Source: Herpetosiphon aurantiacus DSM 785
Lineage (GTDB): Bacteria; Chloroflexota; Chloroflexia; Chloroflexales; Herpetosiphonaceae
Direction: 5' to 3'
Length of the DNA stretch: 64,000 nt
NCBI GenBank assembly: GCA_000018565.1
Contig: CP000875.1
Location: 5,657,199 to 5,721,198, forward strand
In this document: in pieces, positions 58,751 through 64,000 of the stretch
Numbering within the stretch: the stretch's first letter is position 1
How the letters are laid out: every line of letters starts with the position of its first letter
Translations under genes and position numbers: made by a program
Notes under the pieces: generated by a model
Databases searched by the model: none
The model's input: the letters and a program-made list of their open reading frames with translations, nothing else
Told to the model about the DNA's origin: nothing

Positions 58751-59383
58751 ATGACCCTATTACAGGTGCCAATCACCGAATTTTTGGATCAGCTTGCAAC
58801 CAAGGAGCCAGTGCCAGGTGGCGGTAGTGTTGCAGCCGTGTCTGGGGCGATGGCCGCAGGCTTGATTTCAATGGTTTGTTCGTTGACCCTTGGCAAAAAG
58901 AAGTATGCCGAGGTCGAGGATGAAATTCGTGGTTTGATGGATCGCTCTGAGTCGTTGCGCCGTGAATTGCAAGAGCTAGCCGATGCTGATGTTGAGGCAT
59001 TTCGCCGTTTGAGCGCCGCCTATAAATTGCCGCGTGAAACTACTGCCGATATTGCGATTCGCCGCGATGCCATTCAAAAAGCCACGCGGATTGCGACTGA
59101 TGTGCCGTTGCGGGCGGCTCAAGCGGCAGCGGCAATTTTGCCATTGTGTAGTCCAGCCGCTCAAAAAGGTAATTCAGCGGCAGTGAGCGATGTGGGCGTG
59201 GCGGTGCTCTTGGCTCAGGCGGCGGTACGCAGCGCCTTGCTCAACGTTGAAATTAATCTTAACACGCTCGAAGATCAATTTTATGTGCGCGAAACTCGTG
59301 CCGAGGTTGCCAAACTAACTGCAACCCTGCACGACGATACTGAGGCCGTGATGGCCTTAGTCAATCAACAGCTTCAGGGCTAA
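58751..59383 (+). CDS. fchA: Cyclodeaminase-type folate enzyme
   Basis: 210 residues, matching the C-terminal domain of formiminotransferase-cyclodeaminase and the stand-alone FchA. The start VPITEFLDQLATKEPVPGGGSVAAV with AMAAGLISMVCSLTLGKKKY is the signature. It likely makes or opens methenyl-tetrahydrofolate. It is followed directly by folD, which shares the same one-carbon step, although a terminator-like hairpin lies between. AAGGAGG precedes the ATG. Confidence 0.87.
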   Translation: MTLLQVPITEFLDQLATKEPVPGGGSVAAVSGAMAAGLISMVCSLTLGKKKYAEVEDEIRGLMDRSESLRRELQELADADVEAFRRLSAAYKLPRETTADIAIRRDAIQKATRIATDVPLRAAQAAAAILPLCSPAAQKGNSAAVSDVGVAVLLAQAAVRSALLNVEINLNTLEDQFYVRETRAEVAKLTATLHDDTEAVMALVNQQLQG

Positions 59384-59399
59384 ATGGTTTTCCAACGAT

Positions 59400-59423
59400 G
59401 GCGGAGCGCAGGCTCCGCCTTTT
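59400..59423 (+). terminator. Terminator-like hairpin before folD
   Basis: GGCGGAG (59400-59406) and CTCCGCC (59413-59419) with loop CGCAGG, then TTTTATTT. It lies between fchA and the folD start at 59440. It could end fchA, or act as a partial attenuator for folD. Confidence 0.72.
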
Positions 59424-59439
59424 ATTTGTAAAGGATGTT

Positions 59440-60300
59440 ATGACAGCGCTTTTGCTTGATGGTCGCGGGTTGGCCAAGGAATTGAAGGCTCAAATTAGCC
59501 AGCAAGGAGCTGAATTCAAGGCTCGCACTGGCTATGCTCCCCAATTGGTGGTGATTCAAGTGGCGGGCAATGCTGCTTCCGATTGGTATGTGCGTTCAAT
59601 TCGGCGTTCATGCGAAGGGGTTGGCTTTGGCTTTGCCCTGCAACGCTTGCCAGAAACCAGCGATCAAGCGACTTTAGAAGCGGCCATTCAACAAGCCAGC
59701 AACGATCCCGCGATTCATGGCATTATTATTCAAATGCCGTTGCCCAGCCAGCTCTCGGCTGATGGCGCGGTAGCCGCGCTCAATCCCCAAAAAGATGTTG
59801 ATGGGTTGCACCCAACCAATGCAGGCCGTTTGGCCCAAGGTTTGACCGCGCTTGTGCCCAATACGCCTGCTGGTGGTATGGCCTTGCTTGATCGCTATCA
59901 GATTAATCTGGCTGGCAAGCATGCGGTGGTGGTTGGTCGCTCGAATGTGGTTGGCAAGCCGCTGGCTCAATTGTTGCTGGCGCGGCATGCCACCGTCACA
60001 ATTTGCCATTCGCGCACTGCCAATTTGGCCGAGGTTATTCGCCAAGGCGATATTGTCGCGGCAGCGGTCGGCAAGGCTGGCTTGGTCACTGGCGAGATGC
60101 TCAAACCTGGCGCGGTGGTGCTCGATTTTGGTATCAATGAGGTGGCTGAAGGCCAAGTAGTTGGCGATGTTGATTGGGAAAGTGCCAGCAAGGTGGCGAG
60201 CGCAATTACCCCGGTACCAGGCGGCACTGGCCCGGTTACCAATATGATGTTGCTGCAAAACACCTTACAAGCAGCTCAATCGCTGGCCGAACAAGCCTAA
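59440..60300 (+). CDS. folD: Methylene-THF dehydrogenase/cyclohydrolase
   Basis: 286 residues. The bifunctional enzyme interconverts methylene-, methenyl- and formyl-tetrahydrofolate. Motifs: GNAASDWYVRSIRRSC with the catalytic Lys region altered to Arg-rich, HGIIIQMPLP, DVDGLHPTNAGRL, VVVGRSNVVGKPLAQLLL for NADP and TPVPGGTGPVTNMMLL. The usual YVxxK lysine reads YVRSI here, a point to check. ATG 59440 follows AAAGGATGTT; the frame from 59398 begins in the terminator stem and is rejected. Confidence 0.93.
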   Translation: MTALLLDGRGLAKELKAQISQQGAEFKARTGYAPQLVVIQVAGNAASDWYVRSIRRSCEGVGFGFALQRLPETSDQATLEAAIQQASNDPAIHGIIIQMPLPSQLSADGAVAALNPQKDVDGLHPTNAGRLAQGLTALVPNTPAGGMALLDRYQINLAGKHAVVVGRSNVVGKPLAQLLLARHATVTICHSRTANLAEVIRQGDIVAAAVGKAGLVTGEMLKPGAVVLDFGINEVAEGQVVGDVDWESASKVASAITPVPGGTGPVTNMMLLQNTLQAAQSLAEQA

Positions 60301-60890
60301 CCCGCAGCTAGGCTGAGGTTTTCTTGGCTGGCAATAATTAAATCGTTTAGTTGTTGCCAGCGCTCAGCCATTTCGTGGGCGGGCAAGGCTGGTTTCTGCC
60401 AATCGGCAATACAGGCTTGGCGATAGGTTAATCCTGCTTGCTCAATCACCCACTGCTCGTAGGCGGCAATCCATGTGCAGCAATGACCGAGCAAGCTAGT
60501 CATGCGCAGCCATTCAGCCCAATTATGTGGCGCTCGCACGGCTGGAATTTGGCTTAGCGACCAAACATCACACAGCGGCGCTGCCCGCTCGATCAAGCCA
60601 ACTTGCAGTTTATCGCGGCGCAGAAATAGGCTTGGCGCATAGCCATCGCCATACCACAAGCCCCAACCCCACAAACCCATCCTCGCTCCACAGTTCAATT
60701 GAAAATGATAATTGCTGCTGCCCCGTTGTTCGGCTGGCACACGGCTGCGCGTTGCCCCATATTCCAGCAGCAAATTGCCTGCGCAACGGCGCACATCGTG
60801 GCCCCAACACCAACATTGTTGCTCGAATAGTGGCCGGCCCGCTTGATGCACAGCCTTGGGTAATTGATAATTTGGACTATTTTGCTTCAT
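60297..60890 (-). CDS. Hypothetical protein, Trp/Cys-rich
   Basis: 197 residues from ATG 60890; the frame open to 61004 would translate through the operator region. It has many Trp, Cys and His residues, e.g. FEQQCWCWGHDVRRCAG, GLWGWGLWYGDGY and LLGHCCTWIAAYEQW. No signal peptide or membrane helix. I do not recognise the family. Cys/His clustering suggests metal or heme contact, which is speculation. Its stop overlaps the folD stop region in convergent orientation by four bases. Twin operator-like palindromes precede it. Confidence 0.65.
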   Translation of the reverse strand: MKQNSPNYQLPKAVHQAGRPLFEQQCWCWGHDVRRCAGNLLLEYGATRSRVPAEQRGSSNYHFQLNCGARMGLWGWGLWYGDGYAPSLFLRRDKLQVGLIERAAPLCDVWSLSQIPAVRAPHNWAEWLRMTSLLGHCCTWIAAYEQWVIEQAGLTYRQACIADWQKPALPAHEMAERWQQLNDLIIASQENLSLAAG

Positions 60891-60892
60891 AT

Positions 60893-60969
60893 TGATACTA
60901 TATATCATTATAAAATTGCCAAAAAATTGGCCGCGCTTTGCACGACCATAATATTGATATAATGTATCA
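60893..60969 (-). promoter_or_regulatory. Twin palindromes around a promoter
   Basis: Two 15-bp sites of the form TGATA-N5-TATCA lie at 60893-60907 and 60955-60969, centres 62 bp apart. The flanks match too (ATATTGATA and TATCATTAT). Between them is a minus-strand TATAAT (near 60908-60913). The site resembles a Fur-family 7-1-7 box at 10 to 11 of 14 positions. The downstream gene starts at 60890. Confidence 0.6.
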
Positions 60970-60985
60970 TTATTAGAATGGATTG

Positions 60986-62878
60986 TCAATCGGCAGGCAG
61001 CCAAACGGTTGTGCCAACCCAGATCCCTTGGTCGGCCATGCTGGTTTCGTTGCTTAGCTCGACCTTGGCCGGTTTGCTAGGGTCGAAGGTGTAGGTGCCA
61101 AGATCAGCCCATTCGTTGGCATACACAAACTGATTGACTACCACATCGCTGCGACCTTCGGCGTGTTCAATCACATAATGGGCGGCAACAGCATCATCGT
61201 GGCCGTTGTAGTAGTAGGGAATATACGTTAGCACACGATAACGCCCAGCGCTGGGAATGCTGGTTTGCCAGGTAGCGGTGCTTGGTGGTTGGCTTGGCGT
61301 TGGTTGAGGCGTGGCAACGCCTGCCAAATCCGACATTGTGTCGGTTAGGGTTTCAGTGGTTGTTATGGGAATTTGCGAGGTAATCCAAAGGGTTTCGCCA
61401 CCAGCACCGATTGGGGCATTTTGCCAATTGCCTTCGCTGCGACTAAATCCTTGATCGCTTGGCCGCACTGCGATGGTTTGCCCAAGATCGCAAGGATTCG
61501 GGCGATCGGCCCAAAGCCAGCGCGAAGCTGTGCCAACTGGATAGCTGCTCCATGGGTCGGGTTCGCTTGAGCACCAACCATACGGATCGGTGTTGCGGCC
61601 AAGGTATTGGGTTTGAAAGTGCAAGTGTGGGCCGATCGCACAGCCAGTTGAGCCAACGATGCCCAATTGTTCGCCGCCTTTGATCGATTGGCCAAGCTCG
61701 ACCGAAATTTCGCTCAGATGCCAATAGAGCGTGCGATAGCCATTGCCATGATCAAGCACCACGCCTTTGGCTGGCACACCACAACCATCATCAGAATTGC
61801 TGGCCCAAACCACCGTGCCATCAGCGGCGGCAACCACTGCTTCGGGCGGTCGTGCGCCATAATCCCAGCCATCGTGACCATCATAGGAAAGCTCGGTTTC
61901 ACGTCGCCCCCACCAACTCACCAAGGATTGATTGGGCGTTAGAAAGGGATATTCGTGATCAAAAAACGAAGTGATATAGGTGACATTGCGTAGCGGCCAA
62001 CGTAAAAATGGCGTTGCTGGCGCTGGTACTTGGCCCAACGTTTGACGGGGATCTTCGAAAAACTTGCTGTAGGTTGCGACAAAACTGCCATCGCTGAGCA
62101 CTTTCGCCAATTCTTCGGGAGTCATGGTTTGAGCCAGCACCCGTATCACTGCATACGAGCTTGGGTTTAAACCAGCTGGAATTGGGCCTTTGACATCTTT
62201 ATCGCGATATTGCAACTCGGTAACATAGGCGAAATCACGCACACCCCGCCGCAATTCACGGGCGGCCCAACGAATTTGGCCATGCAAGCCGCGCCATTTT
62301 TCATCCTCGCCCTGATATTTCATGGCCCAATCGAGTTGATCAGGGTTGGGGGTTGGGTTGGTCAGCAGGCCTTGTTGAAATTCGAGCAAGGCCAGCAGCA
62401 ATTTGGGATTAAGACTATACAAATAGGCTTGGCCAACCACCACCTCGGCCAGCGATAAATTGCGATCGCCAACTGTTACCAAGGCGGCTTTGAGCGTGCC
62501 AGGCTGTGCATCTAACAACGTTTGAATATTGGCGACAGTCAGATTTTGCTCGGATGTAAAGCGAATATCATCGATGATTGTTGGCGCTTCGGCAGAACGG
62601 GGCAAGATCGCGCTTGCATCAACCAGATTTTGCGGTTCGATCGCTGGGGGCAGTGTTGGTGGTGGTTGTTCGGCTTGGGTGCGGTCGTCCTCCGTCACCG
62701 AATCAACAGGCCGAAAAATCAAGCGCCCAGTTTCAGTGGCAGGTGGGGCAATCCGTAGCACCAGCGTCGTTAACAACAAACTGATGATTAAAGTGCTGAA
62801 CAAAGCCCAGAGGCGCTGTTGATCGCTTTGCAGCCGATTGCGTAAATCGAAATAGCGTTTGGGGTTAAAACGTTGCAT
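60986..62878 (-). CDS. M23 peptidase with C-terminal golvesin-like domain
   Basis: 630 residues. A basic start and one helix (about 25-46) anchor it, with a Pro/Glu-rich linker next. The M23 LytM domain (about 345-470) has HDGWDYGA with the first His and Asp, and HLHFQTQY with the second His pair, the zinc site of D,D-endopeptidases. The last ~125 residues (GRYRVLTYIPYYYNGHDDAV, WADLGTYTFDP) match a golvesin-type beta domain by pattern. It probably remodels peptidoglycan outside the membrane. TGAGGATT precedes ATG 62878. Confidence 0.87.
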   Translation of the reverse strand: MQRFNPKRYFDLRNRLQSDQQRLWALFSTLIISLLLTTLVLRIAPPATETGRLIFRPVDSVTEDDRTQAEQPPPTLPPAIEPQNLVDASAILPRSAEAPTIIDDIRFTSEQNLTVANIQTLLDAQPGTLKAALVTVGDRNLSLAEVVVGQAYLYSLNPKLLLALLEFQQGLLTNPTPNPDQLDWAMKYQGEDEKWRGLHGQIRWAARELRRGVRDFAYVTELQYRDKDVKGPIPAGLNPSSYAVIRVLAQTMTPEELAKVLSDGSFVATYSKFFEDPRQTLGQVPAPATPFLRWPLRNVTYITSFFDHEYPFLTPNQSLVSWWGRRETELSYDGHDGWDYGARPPEAVVAAADGTVVWASNSDDGCGVPAKGVVLDHGNGYRTLYWHLSEISVELGQSIKGGEQLGIVGSTGCAIGPHLHFQTQYLGRNTDPYGWCSSEPDPWSSYPVGTASRWLWADRPNPCDLGQTIAVRPSDQGFSRSEGNWQNAPIGAGGETLWITSQIPITTTETLTDTMSDLAGVATPQPTPSQPPSTATWQTSIPSAGRYRVLTYIPYYYNGHDDAVAAHYVIEHAEGRSDVVVNQFVYANEWADLGTYTFDPSKPAKVELSNETSMADQGIWVGTTVWLPAD

Positions 62879-63029
62879 AATCCTCACCAAGCATTCGCCT
62901 TGCCAGTATAGCAGATGTCGAATGTTTGGCGTACAGCATGGATCACTCTACCCCTAAAGTGCAATGTGCGATCGGCATGCATTCCTTGATGAGCTTATAA
63001 ATTAGTACTTAATCCTTGGTATGTTTCAG

Positions 63030-63302: not shown

Positions 63303-64000
63303 TTAATGTTGAAGCATGTTACGAACTTCATCAATCGTATATGGTTCTTTGCGCATATGAATCACAGCATGACAATTCGGACATACAGGGCGCAAATCAT
63401 CAATGGGATTAACTTCGTAGTTTTCGCCAATAGTAGCTAGTGGCTTAAGATGATGGACATGAATAAATCCTTTTGCTAACTCTCCATAAACTTTGGCAAA
63501 ATCGAAATGGCAAATAACACAAGTTGATCCATAGTGCTCAATACAACGTTGACGGGCTTCGGGATTTCGCTCATAACGAGTTACTAATGATTGATATTCT
63601 GCCCCCTCAATGAAAATCTCAGGGCTTGCTATTGGTTGGTGAGGTTGTGTTGATGGTAAGTCAAACAAATTTGCTTGGATTGCAGCTGACCAATCTTCTT
63701 CGACAGTAGATACATTTTGTATAGATTGTTTTCGTAGATCTAGGATAAGGCGTTCAGGATTTGATTGTATCCAAGGGTCAATAATCGAATTAAATTCTTC
63801 AATCCATTCATTAGAATTGAAACCATATCTCATTTCATATGTTGACGTAATTTCATCACTTTGAATAATTTTCAGATTATCTGGTAAATCAGGAGTATCC
63901 CAGTCTTTTACAATTACTGCTGTACTATTATCATCTATGAATCTTTCTTTTTTATAGCCTTTTTCTTTATATGCGATAACTAGATAGTTTCTTACTTTTG
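63303..64000 (-). CDS. HNH endonuclease, 5' end beyond window
   Basis: The frame is open from the stop at 63303 to the right edge, at least 232 codons, so ATG 63833 is internal and the true start lies outside. The C-terminus has an HNH domain: CVICHFDF and CPNCHAVIH are the zinc knuckles and HVHHLKPLATIG the catalytic His segment. This resembles McrA/5-methylcytosine-type or stand-alone HNH nucleases. The N-terminal part visible here is AT-rich and unrecognised. It may be a restriction or defence nuclease; context to the right is needed. Confidence 0.8.
   Translation of the reverse strand, partial: KVRNYLVIAYKEKGYKKERFIDDNSTAVIVKDWDTPDLPDNLKIIQSDEITSTYEMRYGFNSNEWIEEFNSIIDPWIQSNPERLILDLRKQSIQNVSTVEEDWSAAIQANLFDLPSTQPHQPIASPEIFIEGAEYQSLVTRYERNPEARQRCIEHYGSTCVICHFDFAKVYGELAKGFIHVHHLKPLATIGENYEVNPIDDLRPVCPNCHAVIHMRKEPYTIDEVRNMLQH

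Follow-up and report, generated by a model that had tools for sequence, protein, structure and literature searches.

The gene at the center of this analysis, which encodes a 197-aa protein of an undescribed Chloroflexota family, is predicted to be a zinc-starvation gene under Zur control (probability about 0.88), and the twin palindromes ahead of it in Herpetosiphon aurantiacus are best read, from their sequence and from the genes that share them, as Zur boxes. The twin sites are real, conserved and above chance. Throughout, the window is the whole 64,000-nt stretch of DNA that was analyzed, and coordinates refer to it unless the host genome or another locus is named. The features on which the argument turns are listed here in order of position.

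59398-60300: folD, convergent with the family gene, the two ends overlapping by 4 bases
60297..60890, minus strand: family gene, encoding the 197-aa protein; it converges on folD and is preceded by the M23 gene
60893..60907, no strand: predicted downstream Zur-type box, TGATACTATATATCA, ending 2 bp short of the ATG at 60890; arms perfect in all six Herpetosiphon genomes
60921..60948, minus strand: intrinsic-terminator-like hairpin (9 pairs, loop of 3; stem 60948-60928) with a T run, between the boxes
60955..60969, no strand: predicted upstream Zur-type box, TGATATAATGTATCA (minus strand TGATACATTATATCA), holding the -10 element
60961..60966, minus strand: -10 element TACATT with TG before it, inside the upstream box, from a consensus scan
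60984..60989, minus strand: -35 element TTGACA, overlapping the M23 stop codon and invariant in six Herpetosiphon genomes
60986..62890, minus strand: M23 peptidase gene with a Golvesin_C domain, an upstream neighbor outside the regulated unit, placed the same way in a sister genus

Elsewhere in the window, an FchA-type cyclodeaminase gene adjoins folD to form a folate pair (58751-60300), and an HNH endonuclease gene lies at 63303-63833 (Pfam HNH, E 1.2e-5).

The stretch that separates the M23 gene from the start codon of the family gene contains both palindromes. Their starts are 62 bp apart, and each has TATT leading into its first arm and TTAT past its second. The arms of the upstream box are perfect in five of the six Herpetosiphon genomes and carry one mismatch in the sixth. 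When TTGATA-N5-TATCA was searched for with at most one mismatch in the 64-kb window, 8 matches were found at 5 places (3 of them read on both strands) vs. 0.79 expected, and the only exact matches were the twin sites. The sequence and these counts confirm the two near-identical 15-bp palindromes with matching flanks, 62 bp apart, that a first-pass annotation had described. Its comparison with Fur-type boxes is also upheld, since both sites have the appearance of operators for a regulator of the Fur superfamily.

The palindrome is not confined to this promoter. In the 6,785,430-bp host genome, the exact loose pattern TTGATA-N5-TATCA gave 11 + 11 matches (16 places) vs. 1 + 2 in a reversed control. 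A refined palindrome, TGATAYWAWRTATCA, picked after that scan and derived, like the weight matrix used below, from the very boxes under study, occurs exactly at 10 sites in the host genome vs. 0 in the reversed control; with up to one mismatch allowed the counts are 26 and 2, and across six Herpetosiphon genomes there are 33 exact sites vs. 1. The sites thus do not occur only here, the scan finding 10 of them genome-wide. Eight of the 16 loose-pattern places were set aside as not fitting TGATAYWAWRTATCA: six fall within open reading frames (L017, L018-L022) and two are intergenic (L015, L016), the latter carrying TGATATCAAGTATCA or its complement next to genes with no visible zinc function. 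The ten exact boxes lie at nine promoters, listed here by host-genome position with genes named by Pfam; each box is an exact TGATAYWAWRTATCA site.

737912: promoter of a COG0523 gene
1521673: promoter of a GNAT gene
2573211: promoter of a second COG0523 gene
2575612: promoter of znuA-znuC-znuB
2583510: promoter of a Zn-ribbon, COG0523 and Fur operon
2584036: promoter of a Pyr_redox_3 and FeoB-like GTPase operon
2653409: promoter of a Crp-like regulator gene, with an adjoining FecCD transporter gene
2941077: promoter of a cold-shock protein gene
60893-60907 and 60955-60969 of the window: promoter of the family gene, with two boxes

Judged from these domain assignments, the gene content of the box set is that of a zinc regulon. 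Among the genes behind a box are znuABC and three COG0523 genes; a fourth COG0523-type gene (5356028) adjoins none of the ten boxes. Among the matches listed (20 of 989 records), plasmid-encoded proteins annotated as ZigA, which in those records denotes a zinc metallochaperone, share 61-63% identity with the COG0523 protein at 737252. One of the nine promoters drives a FeoB-like GTPase of unspecified metal, and Pfam names no iron gene among the other eight; the GNAT, Crp-like and cold-shock promoters serve genes that themselves have no zinc function. It is because of the other genes carrying the box that zinc, and hence Zur, is the most likely answer. The first-pass annotation had proposed a link to a metal from clustered Cys and His residues in the product; the link itself stands, most likely to zinc, and its proper basis is the box set rather than the clusters. 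The Pyr_redox_3 gene and its FeoB_N/Gate GTPase partner (G000:C1:2584036-2586885; L030:3361-6386) may in their own right be a candidate zinc-responsive transport pair, and pairs resembling them by eye occur in L071 and L072.

Three Fur-family genes in the host genome are candidates for the regulator. The one at 2581770, within the box-controlled operon, has as its best PDB match 2o03, the zinc uptake regulation protein FurB of M. tuberculosis. For the gene at G000:C1:5816127, 2o03 is the third-best PDB match, behind two ferric uptake regulator entries, and the remaining gene is closest to a peroxide regulator (PerR). The kinship of these last two would suit boxes belonging to an iron (Fur), manganese or peroxide (PerR) regulator instead of Zur, as would the general resemblance of Fur-family boxes to one another, the FecCD-type transporter gene upstream of one box-controlled gene and the FeoB-like GTPase under box control. 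We nevertheless regard such a regulator as very unlikely, given the box ahead of znuABC and the three COG0523 genes, the position of the FecCD gene upstream and not downstream of its box, and the pairing of the family gene in relatives with genes for zinc-free L28, L33 and S18. In other phyla, linkage to zinc-free L28, L33 and S18 is a pattern associated with Zur, according to passages of two earlier papers (PMC3087516, PMC6103462).

Zur being the preferred regulator, its gene can be narrowed down from the relatives. Eight loci outside Herpetosiphon carry a Fur gene close to the family gene, and each of them has one or more Fur genes with 5816127 as best match (32-39% identity); at L075 and L120 there are additional Fur genes for which another paralogue is the best or an about equally good match. 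Because the family-linked Fur genes best match 5816127, that gene is likely to be Zur and 2581770 a second, box-controlled relative; the case for 2581770 as the family's Zur is weakened by the same comparison.

A consensus scan places a sigma-70-like promoter, TTGACA-17-TACATT, at 60989-60984 and 60966-60961 with 17 nt between. The best promoter match falls at the same -10 offset in 6 of the 10 boxes, which alone is weak evidence since TGnTA is built into the box consensus; the -35 element is the independent part, and an exact TTGACA stands 19-20 bp ahead of four of the ten boxes, the upstream window box included. Of the earlier statement that the palindromes lie around the promoter, the half that concerns the upstream box holds, as the -10 element is inside it; the downstream box instead abuts the start codon, and it is also overlapped by an in-frame ATG farther upstream, at 60908. 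A possible second promoter spanning the downstream box (TTGGCA-16-TAGTAT) was considered and dropped, as it is not conserved: its -10 reads CAGTAT in two of six genomes.

The spacing of 62 bp, about six helical turns in the window, had been taken to allow the two boxes to cooperate by DNA looping. Across the six Herpetosiphon genomes, however, the box starts are 61, 61, 62, 62, 62 and 65 bp apart, and 65 bp is about 0.3-0.4 turn off from 61 or 62, so that the helical phase is not strictly preserved; where other genera have tandem boxes, these lie anywhere from 22 to 171 bp apart. Phased looping is therefore disfavored, and we think it hardly credible here. For double Zur boxes elsewhere, passages of PMC6103462 call the role unclear and independent action most likely.

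Between the two boxes, the hairpin and its T run are kept in six Herpetosiphon genomes. The 67-nt leader folds with z = -2.6, and an Rfam search of the region between the boxes gave no match. The hairpin probably marks the end of the M23 transcript. If the upstream-box promoter is used, it would also lie in the leader of the family gene, and the transcript would then have to pass it; attenuation is possible for a hairpin so placed between promoter and start codon. A terminator-like hairpin just past the proposed promoter is not accounted for by simple repression.

Under the Zur reading, we infer the following course of regulation. When zinc is sufficient, a zinc-loaded repressor of the Fur family (Zur) would sit on the upstream box, cover the -10 element and block RNA polymerase. 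Covering the -10 element is an ordinary mode of action for a repressor. Stringency might be added by another repressor at the downstream box, which adjoins the start codon, serving either as an independent site or as a roadblock. In zinc shortage the repressor would depart and the family gene would be expressed.

The protein under this control is rich in tryptophan (6.1% Trp) and contains 8 Cys. As the first-pass annotation had stated, it falls into no known family: the window protein has no match in Pfam or NCBIfam, searches of 27 family members against the same two libraries gave one-member matches only (best E 0.068 and 0.094), and the family profile, run against PDB sequences with an E cutoff of 10, gave none. 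PHROGs returned six one-member matches only, with a best E of 0.0052. An alignment of 27 members, from which L086, L088 and L093 were excluded as short or near-duplicate, shows Q25, W27, G30, D32, N39, L41, G45, Y61, W74, G77, R92, Y144, E145, R157 and W178 to be invariant and W140 to be nearly so. The mean net charge is only +3, a point against an RNA or ribosome role. The structure prediction proposed earlier was run with AlphaFold2 on four closely related sequences and returned a mean pLDDT of 38.7, without a confident fold.

In the same alignment, no Cys or His stands at an invariant or nearly invariant column. The Trp, Cys and His richness noticed at first therefore has a conserved part, the tryptophans (W27, W74 and W178 invariant, W140 nearly), and a part that is not conserved, the Cys and His residues, from whose clustering a metal-linked role had been drawn. 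A direct zinc-binding role, as a store or metallochaperone that uses a Cys/His cluster, could be imagined: C26, C28, H31 and more Cys are present in the window protein, and C occupies at least one of positions 26, 28 and 31 in many relatives. In many members, however, C26 is replaced by F, M, G or L and C28 by L, Y, A or F, and position 31 may be H, C, Y, Q, R, A or W. With no Cys/His column kept across the 27 members, direct metal binding is unsupported, and a zinc store or metallochaperone appears improbable.

When genome contigs were scanned with the window protein alone, which detects close relatives only, three loci were found, in three Herpetosiphon species. A profile of four Herpetosiphon sequences extended the family to 33 of 158 genomes of the class, of which G083 was a marginal match and was not kept; searched against 400 genomes of the phylum, the 27-member profile gave matches in 23, seven of them not in the class. 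The family profile searches were confined to Chloroflexota, and the family may spread beyond it; no relatives were found in plasmids, phages or viral contigs.

The gene context of the family was computed at 33 loci outside Herpetosiphon (317 kb), comprising 26 of the 27 class loci and the 7 new ones from the phylum-wide search; these loci are not independent, with several per genus and two near-duplicate pairs. By home-made profiles, 28 of the 33 have a zinc-response gene within 5 kb of the family gene. Neighbors at that distance include COG0523 (16 loci), Fur (8), cold-shock domain (8), L28 (7), ZnuA (5), S18 (2) and L33 (1) genes, and a zf_Tbcl-type protein at 9 loci that overlaps the cold-shock matches. 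The COG0523 and Fur profiles, seeded solely from the host genome, suffice for 21 of the 33, and the remaining context profiles were partly seeded from the 33 loci and match those by construction. Twelve control loci from the host genome gave matches only at the two chosen for their Fur genes. Pfam confirms L28, L33, S18, CSD, zf_Tbcl and ZnuA in examples, and the ribosomal proteins checked near the family gene (four L28, one S18, one L33) have no CxxC and at most one Cys, which is the zinc-free kind.

Boxes accompany the family gene in these relatives as well. A weight matrix built from the ten host boxes gave 54 matches above 12 bits in the 317 kb vs. 0.2 in shuffles and placed a box within 3.2 kb upstream of the family gene at 20 of the 33 loci; a relaxed palindrome gave 38 matches vs. 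0.4 and added L076, L081, L120 (where the box is 4.5 kb upstream) and L121. By both searches taken together, a Zur-type box lies upstream at 24 of the 33 loci, and 30 have a box or a zinc neighbor. Several boxes are 1-3 kb off, ahead of the first gene of what is presumed to be an operon. Among the nine loci without a box, L079, L083 and L122 have less than 700 bp of upstream sequence, L078 and L080 have a variant box by eye (at L078 its sole zinc sign), and none is seen at L074, L090, L091 and L123. L074 and L123 have zinc neighbors; L090 and L091, from the same genus, have neither box nor zinc neighbor.

Some further features of these loci deserve mention. A variant box, about TGRTAGNNNCTATCA, occurs in L076, L078, L080, L081 and L087 and suggests drift of the motif. 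The COG0523 genes near the family gene at L067, L119, L120 and L123 are adjoined by a gene for an apparent propeller protein of the WD40 type. A CxxC protein of about 80 aa heads several zinc operons (L074:5623-5853, L081, L087:7845-8093, L088), and the two examples examined had no Pfam match.

As for what the product does, the neighbors offer the main lead. In the sister genus (L066), the place downstream of the M23 ortholog (66% identity) is taken up by two boxes together with a cold-shock gene and the family gene, and the cold-shock protein is 41% identical to the host protein that has its own box at 2941077; in Herpetosiphon the cold-shock gene is absent from the position between the M23 and family genes. 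A cold-shock gene also directly precedes the family gene in L084 and L085, which represent two genera of one other family. It is mainly because of this pairing that we lean toward the RNA side, and the neighbors alone lead us to infer, tentatively and at somewhat less than even odds, that the product is a zinc-independent factor aiding RNA or ribosome function in zinc starvation. The host genome has a single L28 gene and no zinc-free L28 paralogue under box control, which weakens the ribosome reading for Herpetosiphon.

A different role would be that of a zinc-free replacement for a known zinc enzyme, comparable with FolE2 or HemB2 in other Zur regulons. Such replacements are described in passages of PMC2770081 as members of Zur regulons, and the invariant polar residues Q25, D32, N39, R92, E145 and R157 could be catalytic. 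The known replacements, however, are paralogues of the enzymes they replace or belong to known families, and the present protein has no similarity in Pfam, NCBIfam or the PDB; nor do its neighbors share a common metabolic pathway that we could see. A replacement enzyme is on balance unlikely, and an RNA- or ribosome-directed factor is our preferred, if tentative, suggestion for the role.

For Herpetosiphon and its relatives in the Chloroflexota, the analysis defines an operator that probably responds to zinc, and it supplies a testable condition, zinc shortage, for a conserved family on which the searched libraries are silent. Should the family turn out to act on ribosomes or RNA, it would contribute to the picture of how bacteria remodel translation under zinc shortage. 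RegPrecise 3.0, according to a passage of its description, includes a Chloroflexi collection (PMC3840689), and this collection may already list these Zur boxes. Among the papers listed on zinc and Zur in Herpetosiphon and Chloroflexi, the family gene is named in no title or abstract opening.

The arrangement can be set beside several known systems. Promoters with two or more Zur boxes, one of them over the -10 element, are described in passages of PMC6103462 for yciC of Bacillus subtilis and znuA of Streptomyces coelicolor, and two-box promoters there serve COG0523 and znu targets. In contrast, the box here is TGATA-N5-TATCA, its target encodes a protein of an undescribed family, and the second box of the window is not over the -35 element, lying instead about 60 bp downstream, past the hairpin and at the start codon. 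The Zur-linked COG0523 clusters treated in PMC2770081 are similar in that COG0523 genes lie downstream of Zur sites with replacement proteins nearby; the main text of that paper does not contain 'Chloroflex-' and names Herpetosiphon once, for a histidine motif. Closest in gene content is the mycobacterial C-minus ribosomal operon under Zur with MRF, in which zinc-starvation genes accompany L28, L33, S18 and COG0523 genes (passages of PMC7174638 and PMC13418864), and where, as the latter paper reports, zinc starvation leads to ribosome remodeling and hibernation. MRF (Mpy recruitment factor) is itself a CobW/COG0523 protein, MSMEG_6069, and for that reason we rejected it as a homologue; the window family adjoins COG0523 genes and lacks that domain, no CobW/P47K GTPase match being found by Pfam in the 27 members. 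It is conceivable, if rather doubtful, that the new Chloroflexota family keeps or parks translation under zinc scarcity together with cold-shock-domain proteins and zinc-free (C-minus) ribosomal proteins, as a counterpart in role to the mycobacterial MRF/Mpy pair built from unrelated parts. The operator is probably of the Zur-type kind already known, and the protein family is the less familiar part.
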